From assembly GCA_945878355.1 (NCBI GenBank), contig CAMCTC010000050.1:1-32360 (forward strand): a stretch of DNA of 32,360 nucleotides, written 5' to 3'. Each line of letters begins with the position of its first letter. The first letter of the stretch is position 1. A model generated the notes under the pieces. That model was not told the origin of the DNA. It made no database searches and was given only the letters and a program-made list of their open reading frames with translations. Source of the DNA: Bordetella parapertussis. Lineage in GTDB: Bacteria; Pseudomonadota; Gammaproteobacteria; Burkholderiales; Burkholderiaceae_C. Shown here one piece after another: positions 21,793-24,104 of this stretch. A program made the position numbers and the translations under genes.

Positions 21793-23343
21793 TCAGCGCA
21801 GGAATAGCTGGTACACCGGGTTGTCGGTTTCCTCGACACAGGGGTAGGCCAGCGCCTCGCGGAAAGCGTCGAAGGCTGACGCGTCACCCGCAGGCACCTG
21901 GATGCCGACGAGGATGCGGCCGTGATCCGCGCCCTGGTTGCGGTAGTGGAACAGGCTGATGTTCCAGTTCGGGTGCAGGCTCGAGAGGAATTTCATCAGC
22001 GCGCCCGGCCGCTCAGGGAAAACAAAGCGAAACAGCCGCTCGTCGGCTGCCAGCCCTGAGGCGCCACCGACGCGGCCGCCGACCATGTGTCGCACATGCT
22101 CCTTGGCGAGTTCGTCGTCGGTCAGGTCGACCGTGGCAAAGCCGTGGCGCGCGAAGTTGCGAGCGATCTTGTCTGCATCCTCGCGCTTGGCGATCGTCAC
22201 GCCGACAAAGACATGGGCCAGGTGGGTGTCTGAGATGCGGTAGTTGAACTCTGTCACCGAGCGCGGCCCTAGCAACTCGCAAAAGCGCTTGAACGAGCCG
22301 CGCTCCTCGGGAATCGTCACCGCGAACAGCGCTTCGCGTTGCTCGCCGAATTCGGCCCGTTCGGCGACAAAGCGCAGTCGATCGAAGTTCATGTTGGCGC
22401 CGCAGGTGATCGCCACCAGGGTCTTGCCTTTGAGCTTGTGGCGCGCGGCATATTGCTTGACCGCAGCCACCCCCATCGCGCCGGCCGGCTCGAGGATGCT
22501 TCGGGTGTCCTGAAACACATCCTTGATCGCTGCGCAGACCTCGTCGGTGTCGACGACGACGAAGTCGTCGACCAGTTCGCGGGTCAGGCGGAAGGTCTCC
22601 TCGCCAACGAGCTTGACCGCCGTGCCGTCTGAGAACAAGCCGACATCGGCGAGCGTGACGCGGTGGCCGGCCTGCACCGAGCGCAGCATCGCGTCCGAGT
22701 CGCGGGTCTGCACGCCGATCACCAGGATCTCGGGCCGCACGGCCTTGATGTACGACGCCACGCCCGAGATCAGCCCGCCGCCGCCGATCGCGACAAAGAT
22801 CGCCGTGATCGGCCCCTGGTGCTGGCGCAGGATCTCCATCGCGATCGTGCCCTGGCCGGCGATCACGTCGGGGTCATCGAAGGGGTGGACGAAGGTCAGT
22901 CCCTGGTCGCGCTGCAAGCCGAGAGCGTGGTCGTAGGCGTCTGAGAAGCTGTCGCCGTGCAGCACCACCTCGCCGCCCAAGGCCAGCACTGCGTCGATCT
23001 TGAGCTTCGGCGTGGTCACCGGCATCACGATCAGCGCGCGACAACCCAGTTTTTTCGCCGACAGTGCCACGCCCTGGGCATGGTTGCCTGCAGACGCGCA
23101 GATCACGCCCTGGGCCAACTGCTCGGGCGCCAGGTGCACCATCTTGTTGTAAGCGCCGCGCAGCTTGAAGCTGAACACCGGTTGCTGGTCCTCTCGCTTG
23201 AGCAACACCGGGTTGCCGATGCGGCGCGACAGGTTGCGCGCTGGCTCAAGCGCGGATTCGATCGCCACATCGTAGACCTTCGCAGTGAGGATCTTCTTCA
23301 GGTAATCGGGGCGGGACGCGGGAATGGTCTTGGCGCGGGCCAT
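21793..23343 (-). CDS. ilvA: Threonine ammonia-lyase, biosynthetic
   Basis: A 516-residue enzyme. The N-terminal PLP domain has the Schiff-base lysine K60 in FSFKLRGAYNKM, then SAGNHAQGVA and the phosphate-binding GGGGLISGVASY. The C-terminal ~190 residues form two ACT-like regulatory domains (for example RSVTEFNYRISD and NWNISLFHYRNQGADHGRILVGIQVP), which in this family bind isoleucine and valine for feedback control. It deaminates threonine to 2-oxobutanoate, the first step to isoleucine. AGGAG lies 9 bp before the ATG at 23343. The frame stays open upstream to 23487 but only by running through a terminator, so that extension is rejected. TATCAT (minus strand, 23386-23391) could be the -10 of its own promoter. 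Confidence 0.97.
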   Translation of the reverse strand: MARAKTIPASRPDYLKKILTAKVYDVAIESALEPARNLSRRIGNPVLLKREDQQPVFSFKLRGAYNKMVHLAPEQLAQGVICASAGNHAQGVALSAKKLGCRALIVMPVTTPKLKIDAVLALGGEVVLHGDSFSDAYDHALGLQRDQGLTFVHPFDDPDVIAGQGTIAMEILRQHQGPITAIFVAIGGGGLISGVASYIKAVRPEILVIGVQTRDSDAMLRSVQAGHRVTLADVGLFSDGTAVKLVGEETFRLTRELVDDFVVVDTDEVCAAIKDVFQDTRSILEPAGAMGVAAVKQYAARHKLKGKTLVAITCGANMNFDRLRFVAERAEFGEQREALFAVTIPEERGSFKRFCELLGPRSVTEFNYRISDTHLAHVFVGVTIAKREDADKIARNFARHGFATVDLTDDELAKEHVRHMVGGRVGGASGLAADERLFRFVFPERPGALMKFLSSLHPNWNISLFHYRNQGADHGRILVGIQVPAGDASAFDAFREALAYPCVEETDNPVYQLFLR

Positions 23344-23417
23344 GGGCAGCTGTCTCCTGGGATTCCTGATCTTGTGCGGCGCAGCATGATAGCCGCGGGC
23401 TGGCAAGACGGCTGACC

Positions 23418-23448
23418 AAAAAAAAGCCCAGGGTTCGCACCCCGGGCT
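23418..23448 (-). terminator. Intrinsic terminator between the leader RNA and ilvA
   Basis: Read on the minus strand: AGCCCGGGG, a 6-nt loop, CCCTGGGCT, then a run of T. The stem is 9 bp with one G-U pair and the T-tract is 8-9 long, a textbook Rho-independent terminator. It faces ilvA and lies upstream of it on the same strand. Confidence 0.85.
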
Positions 23449-23522
23449 GAATCCACCAATCAAGGAGGTGGAGGAGACAACTTGCAAGGTCAGCAGCCTC
23501 AGTTACCGCGCCACTGACCGAT
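23418..23522 (-). ncRNA. Candidate small RNA or attenuator leader upstream of ilvA
   Basis: A compact minus-strand transcription unit in the otherwise empty gap between ilvA and the divergent osmC-like gene. A sigma-70-like promoter lies just before it, and the RNA would fold into three hairpins: GGUCAG/CUGACC (23489-23519), CCACC/GGUGG (23453-23471), and a terminator (23425-23448) followed by U-tract. Between the first two lies a pyrimidine-rich single strand with CUCCUCC, and the second hairpin includes ACCUCCUU (complement of 23462-23469), identical to the 3' end of bacterial 16S rRNA. It ends 75 nt before the ilvA start, so it could be an attenuator; but ilvA appears to have its own -10, which favours a free small RNA. 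Confidence 0.5.
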
Positions 23523-23528
23523 AGGGAG

Positions 23529-23557
23529 AGTCTAGCCGCTTGATTGCTGCGCCGCAA
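23529..23557 (-). promoter_or_regulatory. Promoter of the ilvA-upstream RNA
   Basis: On the minus strand, TTGCGG (23552-23557) and TAGACT (23529-23534) are separated by exactly 17 bp, giving moderate matches to the sigma-70 -35 and -10. The start of transcription would be near 23522, just before the first hairpin. Confidence 0.5.
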
Positions 23558-23681
23558 TATGATGTGGTCATCAGGTCTAGGGAGCGCACTCCAGAGCCTG
23601 GGGCGCGGATGCACGGCTTCGGTGCGATCCGCAGGAAGTCACCGATCACCAACAGGCGGCAGCGCCTGAAAGAGCCAGACC

Positions 23682-24104
23682 ATGGAATGCAAGATTCATT
23701 GGGTGCCCGGCAGCGGCATGGGTTTCGTGGCCGAGACCGGCAGCGGCCACCTGTTGACGATGGACGGTGCGCCCGACGGCGGCGGTCGCAACCTGGCGCC
23801 CAGGCCGATGGAAACCCTGCTCGCCGGCGCAGGCGCCTGCACGGCTTACGACGTGGTGCTGATCCTCAAGCGCGGCCGCCACGACGTGACGGGCTGCGAG
23901 CTCAAGGTCGAGGCTGACCGCGCCGCCACCGACCCCAAGGTCTTCACGCGCATCAACCTGCATTTCACCGTCACCGGCCGCAAGCTGGCCGAGGCCGCGG
24001 TGGCCAGGGCGATCGCGATGTCGCATGAGAAATACTGCTCGGCGACGATCATGCTGGGCAAGACTGCCGAGATCAGCACCAGCCACGAGATCATTGATAT
24101 CTGA
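23682..24104 (+). CDS. OsmC family protein
   Basis: A 140-residue OsmC/YhfA-type protein. The two redox-active cysteines are C53 (GACTAYDVV) and C119 (KYCSATIML), in the expected contexts for thiol-dependent peroxide reductases of this family; PRPMETLLAGAGACTAYD is the conserved central helix. Members reduce organic hydroperoxides as cytoplasmic dimers, though the YhfA branch is less well studied. It is divergent from ilvA and convergent with coq7, whose stop lies a few base pairs away. The ribosome-binding site is weak (AAAGAG). Confidence 0.92.
   Translation: MECKIHWVPGSGMGFVAETGSGHLLTMDGAPDGGGRNLAPRPMETLLAGAGACTAYDVVLILKRGRHDVTGCELKVEADRAATDPKVFTRINLHFTVTGRKLAEAAVARAIAMSHEKYCSATIMLGKTAEISTSHEIIDI

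Follow-up and report, generated by a model that had tools for sequence, protein, structure and literature searches.

The window analyzed here is a 32,360-nucleotide stretch of DNA from Bordetella parapertussis, and the locus of interest lies between two genes that point away from each other: ilvA (21793..23343, − strand; domains PALP and Thr_dehydrat_C) and an osmC-like gene (23682..24104, + strand; PF02566), beyond which the domain search placed coq7. The Rfam covariance search called for by the first-pass annotation returned RF02278 ("Betaproteobacteria toxic sRNA") at 23479-23418 on the − strand, with 62.8 bits against a gathering score of 50 (E 1.4e-10). The match is full length, covering the entire model (positions 1-64 of 64), and is the sole Rfam match above the gathering score in the whole window. 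The sRNA itself is not new: it belongs to the known family RF02278, whose traits, a CU-rich 5′ arm, an aSD-like hairpin 1 and an intrinsic terminator, are all present in the window RNA.

The predicted primary transcript of ~105 nt (23418..23522, −) would start at an A 7 nt past the −10 hexamer and has its 3′ end in the U run. The Rfam-matched double-hairpin core (23418..23479, −) is the likely processed form, by analogy with NcS27 of Burkholderia cenocepacia and S17S of Bordetella pertussis. The interval originally singled out, 23418-23557, comprises the promoter plus the RNA, the RNA alone being predicted at 23522-23418. Folding of the 107-nt strand from 23524 gave three hairpins upstream of ilvA, as first described, at −48.2 kcal/mol, compared with −33.6 (sd 4.0) for shuffled sequences (z −3.67); 1 of 200 shuffles folded as well. 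The 5′ hairpin (23488..23519, −) lies outside the Rfam model and is variable in sequence, and the alignment with same-genus loci leaves no room for it in two of them (L021 and L022). The open arm in the predicted fold is the single-stranded seed UUGCAAGUUGUCUCC (23473..23487, −), and the pyrimidine-rich CUCCUCC strand reported earlier is indeed present (CTCCTCC at 23476-23470, − strand). Next come hairpin 1 (23452..23472, −; stem UCCACC/GGUGGA, loop UCCUUGAUU) and the intrinsic terminator (23418..23448, −), which consists of a 10-bp stem (23448-23425), a 4-nt loop and the U run. Both the terminator scan and the fold recovered this terminator, already judged strong at first sight, and it was the sole terminator-like site in the scanned 22900-24100 (shuffles: mean 0.5).

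The exact 16S-tail sequence noted in the first-pass annotation is present (ACCTCCTT at 23469-23462, − strand; ACCUCCUU in the RNA, at 23462-23469 within hairpin 1), but it is not freely exposed in the predicted fold: UCCUU alone lies in the hairpin-1 loop, and ACC is base-paired in the stem. GUCUCCUC, which begins inside the single-stranded seed, is invariant across 61 aligned sequences. Among the 5 pairs predicted for hairpin 1 of the osmC-linked RNA, 1 had changes on both sides, a count that says little because the sequence hardly varies; the terminator was lost from the automatic fold through alignment gaps.

The promoter-like pair proposed for the RNA, a −35 hexamer TTGCGG (23552..23557, −) and a −10 hexamer TAGACT (23529..23534, −) separated by a 17-nt spacer, is present and backed by conservation in relatives. 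A strict sigma-70 scan of 22900-24100 found no promoter at the sRNA, since both hexamers are off consensus. The first reading recognized the hexamers and overlooked a PhaR-type box, ATATTGCGGCGCAGCAA (23544..23560, −), within which the −35 hexamer lies.

Distribution and genomic neighborhood of the RNA

To describe the family distribution, matches were counted at E 0.001 or better, and those above the gathering cut-off are given as over the cut-off. RF02278 was found in 32 of 40 relatives (24 over the cut-off), in 107 of the 120 genomes of the family sample (86 over the cut-off; 13 without a match) and in 80 of the 120 genomes of the order sample (48 over the cut-off). The phylum sample yielded matches in 8 of 120 genomes, the 3 over the cut-off all falling in the window's family-level group, f1. 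Few genomes in the family sample have a second copy above the cut-off. G031 and G080, which belong to the same family, contain 9 and 8 matches, and osmC or a PhaR-type string is nearby for only some of these. A sigma-54-like motif, TGGCACG-N4-[CT]TGC, which we take to be a sigma-54-type promoter, lies no more than 120 bp upstream of 7 of 32 further copies (L256-L261, L264); the control windows gave 0 of 12844, for a pattern composed after viewing the copies on which it was counted.

The neighborhood of the RNA was compared in 122 loci of group f1, excluding second copies and L028, a same-genus locus with a weak match, no osmC and no box. The osmC gene lies divergently upstream in 113 of them, and ilvA follows downstream in 105 of these 113; two of the nine loci without a divergent osmC (L176, L181) are phasin-linked copies. 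Among the 107 best matches of the family sample, 98 have a divergent osmC, and 90 have ilvA behind the RNA in the same orientation (a script set the RNA strands of L001-L209 from similarity to the window). In other families' loci, osmC is often kept and ilvA is absent behind the RNA.

We also examined 80 named records anchored on osmC (L316-L395), the 80 best among at least 590 relatives. The RNA scored above the gathering score in 52 of them (20/20, 10/20, 9/20 and 13/20), always upstream of osmC on the opposite strand; 16 of the 28 records without the RNA belong to Massilia, Duganella, Janthinobacterium or Rugamonas. The next tested neighbor of the RNA was rplM in 47 of the 52 loci, including those of Burkholderia, Ralstonia, Pandoraea and Polynucleobacter, followed by rpsI and erpA where the stretch extends that far. 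In the other five (L383, L384, L391, L392 and L395, from Burkholderiales bacterium C2, Paucibacter, Roseateles and Mitsuaria), it was ilvA. Since the RNA stays beside osmC across the order, with ilvA following only in the window's group and these five named records, we assign it to the osmC side and reject its being a leader of ilvA. As a separate observation, rnpB (RNase P RNA) lies directly beyond osmC in 37 of the 80 named loci, making this a dense non-coding RNA neighborhood.

The PhaR-type box at the sRNA promoter

The PHB-responsive regulator PhaR/PhbF has a site footprinted in Herbaspirillum seropedicae, TG[N]TGC[N]3GCAA (PMC3206438), and a consensus from R. eutropha, YTKNTGCRNYGCANMAR (PMC12849132), from which the window box differs at 2 of 17 positions. 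When the window was aligned with 18 loci of the same genus, 17 of the 18 (all but L028) showed a block [AT]TATTGC[AG]G[CT]GCA-[ACG]-CA or similar over the −35, and behind it a variable stretch and then a TAGACT-like −10. The core TGCRNYGCA was found within 200 bp upstream in 106 of the 113 osmC-linked loci, compared with 34 of 1549 control windows from the same loci, and the full string YTKNTGCRNYGCANMAR at up to 2 mismatches in 79 of 113, compared with 75 of 1549. In 98 of the 106 loci, the core begins 21-23 nt before a −10-like hexamer (under a loose −10 definition, searched over 18-27 nt). Phasin promoters, used as a positive control, gave 21 of 23 loci versus 8 of 201 control windows; these are 23 of 27 loci, leaving out L213 (no upstream DNA) and L234, L235 and L236 (weak or secondary). 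Known phaR promoters fit the string less often (8/19 versus 11/162). A box of PhaR type, as judged from its sequence, covering the −35 of an RF02278 promoter is a new observation; no report tying the family to PhaR or phasin was found in the mostly open-access main texts searched.

We compared genomes with and without PhaR (PF07879), which is encoded in 84 of the 120 order-sample genomes. In PhaR-encoding genomes, the string at up to 2 mismatches occurred in 40 of 71 RNA loci versus 46 of 974 control windows (p 5e-29), and in PhaR-lacking genomes in 1 of 17 versus 7 of 201 (p 0.48). The two groups of RNA loci differ with p 1e-4; this test, like both group tests, ignores relatedness, and lineage is a confounder because most of the 17 loci without PhaR belong to families where PhaR was not found. 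These 88 loci leave out the second copies L109 and L063 and the order-sample matches without sequence. Over the order, the co-occurrence of RNA and PhaR is weak (both in 61 genomes, RNA alone in 19, PhaR alone in 23, neither in 17; p 0.056), and therefore PhaR cannot be the sole control of the family: 19 of the 80 RNA-containing genomes lack PhaR and then, as a rule, the box. In the window's family, PhaR is encoded in 119 of 120 genomes, so its presence is uninformative there.

Among the 52 named loci, 36 had the string at up to 2 mismatches, compared with 56 of 963 controls; some of these matches fall within the RNA, or a long way upstream of it. Burkholderia proper, Cupriavidus and Ralstonia have a degenerate form of the PhaR-type element, and a block like ATTTCG[CT]A[AG]TGCAAAT was seen there by eye upstream of the −35 (L327, L329, L333, L338, L342, L343, L356); this may perhaps be a drifted PhaR box or the site of another regulator. 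In PhaR-lacking genomes (L020, L046, L050, L186, L192, L194, L199, L202-L204), a palindrome-like ATTAGA-N-AAT-N-CTAAT or parts of it were seen by eye around the RNA −10.

The pattern ATRTTGCRNYGCARCA, searched in eight chosen same-genus genomes, gave 32 matches at ~28 distinct sites, whereas the backward-read control gave 1. All 8 genomes have the sRNA promoter among these sites, and at least 6 have the main phasin promoter; such matches arise partly by construction, the pattern having been written from these promoters. What does not follow from the construction is how small the number of other sites is, and that the intracellular PHB depolymerase PhaZ (L445) is among them, as is, for two genomes (L433, L452), 3-hydroxybutyryl-CoA dehydrogenase; four more have no evident PHB tie (L440, L439, L449, L435), and five have no assigned gene (L437, L438, L444, L453, G016:C45). 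In the nearest genome (G001), a PhaR-type box also lies 32 bp before a boxC-type gene of the benzoyl-CoA epoxide pathway (L426, position 1501, − strand).

A sister RNA behind phasin genes and the seed shared with it

Weak RF02278 matches lie behind phasin genes: of the 32 further copies (L256-L287), 15 come after a phasin gene on the same strand. The 3′UTR of the main phasins of the same genus (L210-L221, L223) contains GTCTCCTCGG in 13 of 13 cases, followed by an inverted repeat and a terminator, and no element of this type was found in the 3′UTRs of the secondary phasins L231, L232 and L235. For the 30 best phasins of the family sample, GTCTCC followed by a U run occurred within 250 nt past the stop in 22, compared with 1 of 3160 windows of the genome G004; this count misses L218, which carries the element, and L416, with GTCTCC and no U run, and includes L403 with a short, doubtful terminator. 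All 30 have the PhaR string at up to 2 mismatches. In an alignment of 37 phasin-linked RNAs, GTCTCCT-[CT]-GG is kept and both stems covary: 14 pairs, with 99.0% of cells paired and 12 pairs showing changes on both sides, gave a covariation score of 0.581, compared with 0.207 for shuffles and at most 0.148 when slid. The RNA keeps GUCUCCU and lacks ACCUCCUU. The scored phasin-linked copies all fall below the RF02278 cut-off, and we thus regard them as a double-hairpin sister of the family and not as formal members. The sister RNA would be released from the phasin mRNA as a separate RNA.

The seed was compared with the ribosome-binding sites of the genus by counting 7-mers 4-9 nt before ATG in 432 kb (20 G004 stretches plus the window; three other sequence sets, being repeats of a few same genes, were dropped). 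The words CAGGAGA (11 of 31 before ATG, 1.7 expected) and AGGAGAC (12 of 33, 2.2 expected) were the most enriched in this position; GGAGACA gave 6 of 19 (0.7 expected), compared with 0 of 46 (2.4 expected) for the 16S-type GGAGGTG and 2 of 23 (1.1 expected) for AGGAGGT. The sRNA arm is thus complementary to the genus's own extended ribosome-binding site. The likeness to the 16S tail explains only a part: it is the invariant GUCUCCUC that fits the genus site AGGAGAC, and the 16S-type GGAGGUG is little used.

Interpretation and comparison with known systems

Considering all of these observations, the explanation we regard as likely is that the window encodes a trans-acting RF02278 sRNA, transcribed divergently from osmC and orthologous to NcS27, which blocks ribosome-binding sites and is controlled through PhaR and PHB alongside phasin and the sister RNA. 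The suggestion that a small RNA acts here on its own and binds ribosome-binding sites has held up well, with a full-length RF02278 match and with relatives that are free transcripts whose pairing is predicted (PMC5688073) or, for one target, demonstrated (PMC11722255). The sRNA would be transcribed from its own sigma-70-type promoter as the ~105-nt transcript and probably trimmed to the 62-nt double hairpin, in which the hairpin-1 loop, together with the single-stranded UUGUCUCC arm, would pair with the extended Shine-Dalgarno sequence AGGAGACA in other mRNAs and keep ribosomes from entering. When free, PhaR would sit over the −35 and hold expression of the sRNA down; PHB granules would titrate PhaR away and release the sRNA together with phasin, whose mRNA would carry in its 3′UTR the sister RNA that shares the seed. 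While carbon is being stored, both RNAs would damp the translation of uptake and catabolic genes. PhaR binding, the direction of control and the targets in this organism are what we infer from sequence, and because PhaR can also activate (phaP3, PMC12849132), the sign of the control is uncertain.

A more general form of this proposal, which we place only just above an even chance, is that in Burkholderiales PhaR and two seed-sharing RNAs, one from an osmC-divergent gene and the other released from the phasin 3′UTR, tie translation to the carbon store. Granule titration would raise phasin and both RNAs, lowering uptake and catabolic mRNAs with an extended AGGAGACA, and the extra copies with sigma-54-type promoters would add nitrogen control in some genomes.

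Among the other explanations, that of a general toxic or 16S-mimic RNA, which sequesters Shine-Dalgarno sequences globally via ACCUCCUU as a growth brake while some other regulator, or none, binds the box, is improbable but fares best. The family name refers to the growth inhibition that other members cause in E. coli (cited in PMC5688073 and PMC4603805), overexpression of NcS27 slows growth (PMC5688073), ACCUCCUU is present in the window RNA, and the family also occurs in the 19 genomes that lack PhaR. However, the predicted fold places the ACC of ACCUCCUU in a stem, the sister RNA lacks ACCUCCUU yet keeps GUCUCCU, and the box agrees with the PhbF footprint as well as with the PhaR consensus and recurs at phasin, phaZ and the 3-hydroxybutyryl-CoA dehydrogenase gene. 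We give still less credence to the idea that the box serves the divergent osmC and is near the sRNA merely by chance. The box does lie in the gap that both units flank, and 122 bp separate it from the start of osmC in the window, but its core stays 21-23 nt from the sRNA −10 in 98 of 106 loci, and a box also precedes some RF02278 copies with no osmC in the stretch examined (L106, L107, L132).

The remaining proposal, that the RNA is an attenuator of isoleucine synthesis, i.e., the 5′ part of an ilvA transcript whose terminator answers isoleucine or a related signal, is very improbable and was rejected on synteny: ilvA does follow on the same strand in most loci of the family sample (90/107), and the window ilvA RBS (AGGAGACA, 23351-23358, −) has an 8-nt match to the seed and the ATG 7 nt behind, the sole such site in the window for ATG or GTG starts, but the osmC-side RNA has rplM as its next tested neighbor in 47 of the 52 named loci against 5 with ilvA, the first-pass annotation saw no convincing leader peptide in the sequence, relatives are mapped as free RNAs (PMC4603805, PMC11722255), and a seed-RBS match of at least 7 nt occurs in just 11 of 106 ilvA loci. 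The same counts, for which start codons were chosen automatically and crudely, gave 2 of 106 for osmC and 3 of 65 for coq7; since the ilvA match is not kept in relatives, we do not claim ilvA as a target.

For the PhaR-controlled, RBS-blocking sRNA that we prefer, the published work leaves room for a signal. The control of the known family is stated as open, both for sRNA accumulation in B. cenocepacia (PMC5688073) and for S17, for which a Bvg-linked repressor, itself not yet identified, has been postulated (PMC11722255). The riboregulation of PHB in Cupriavidus necator is described as undeciphered (PMC8401924). The PhaR-type box and the sister RNA in the phasin 3′UTR name a candidate signal, PHB granule status, and suggest, at the level of sequence, that stored carbon helps set the amount of the sRNA. 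If this is true, the PHB regulon of Burkholderiales gains a regulatory RNA arm.

NcS27 of B. cenocepacia is a 92-nt RNA between BCAL3348a and BCAL3349, in the orientation -> <- -> (PMC4603805, Table 3). BCAL3348 is a ribosomal-protein gene (PMC5688073), and BCAL3349 would be osmC. The locus L327 of Burkholderia aenigmatica has the same orientations, with a small ORF (+) adjoining rplM, the RNA (−) and osmC (+); a start 6-9 nt past its TATAAT predicts 94-91 nt, and the A at 8 nt gives 92, compared with ~105 nt predicted for the window RNA. By synteny, with osmC divergent in both the window and L327, the window RNA is the ortholog of NcS27, whose primary transcript is described as longer and then processed (PMC5688073, PMC4603805). 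The B. cenocepacia double-hairpin RNAs NcS03, NcS05, NcS27 and NcS62 share the CU-rich arm and two hairpins with the window RNA. The text consulted names no regulator for them and mentions a common upstream motif in three of the four (Fig. S3; PMC5688073, PMC4603805). According to the same papers, Burkholderia genomes carry three to five RF02278 copies, in contrast to the few second copies in the window's family, and the degenerate PhaR-type element of Burkholderia proper likewise differs from that of the window. The double-hairpin RNAs are reported at higher levels in glucose than in starvation medium (PMC5688073), and the proposed PHB-store model fits this difference as well as the growth attenuation by NcS27.

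S17 of B. pertussis adjoins coq7, and its abundant form, S17S, is a 67-nt RNase E product starting at a C/U-rich stretch (PMC11722255, a preprint). The window RNA also has coq7 close by, with osmC between them, and is probably the ortholog of S17 as well. Pairing of S17S with one target RBS was shown through compensatory mutations, and 70 of the 92 genes rising in the absence of S17 match its single-stranded sites (PMC11722255). The RBS pairing reported for S17S is the basis on which this mechanism is carried over to the window RNA.

Two sRNAs from elsewhere invite comparison. The NmsR RNAs of Neisseria meningitidis have two CU-rich unpaired stretches matching ribosome-binding sites, and differ from the window RNA in their tandem loci and TCA-cycle targets (PMC5688073). 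MmgR of Sinorhizobium meliloti, from a different bacterial class, is a PHB-tied sRNA that is repressed by the PhaR homolog AniA and lowers phasin levels (PMC8401924, PMC7204398); its likeness to the window RNA is the link to PHB. As listed in the accounts consulted, the PhaR/PhbF regulon comprises protein genes and no small RNA, and its box consensus and the position of the box near the −35 of phasin promoters fit the box in the window (PMC3206438, PMC12849132).
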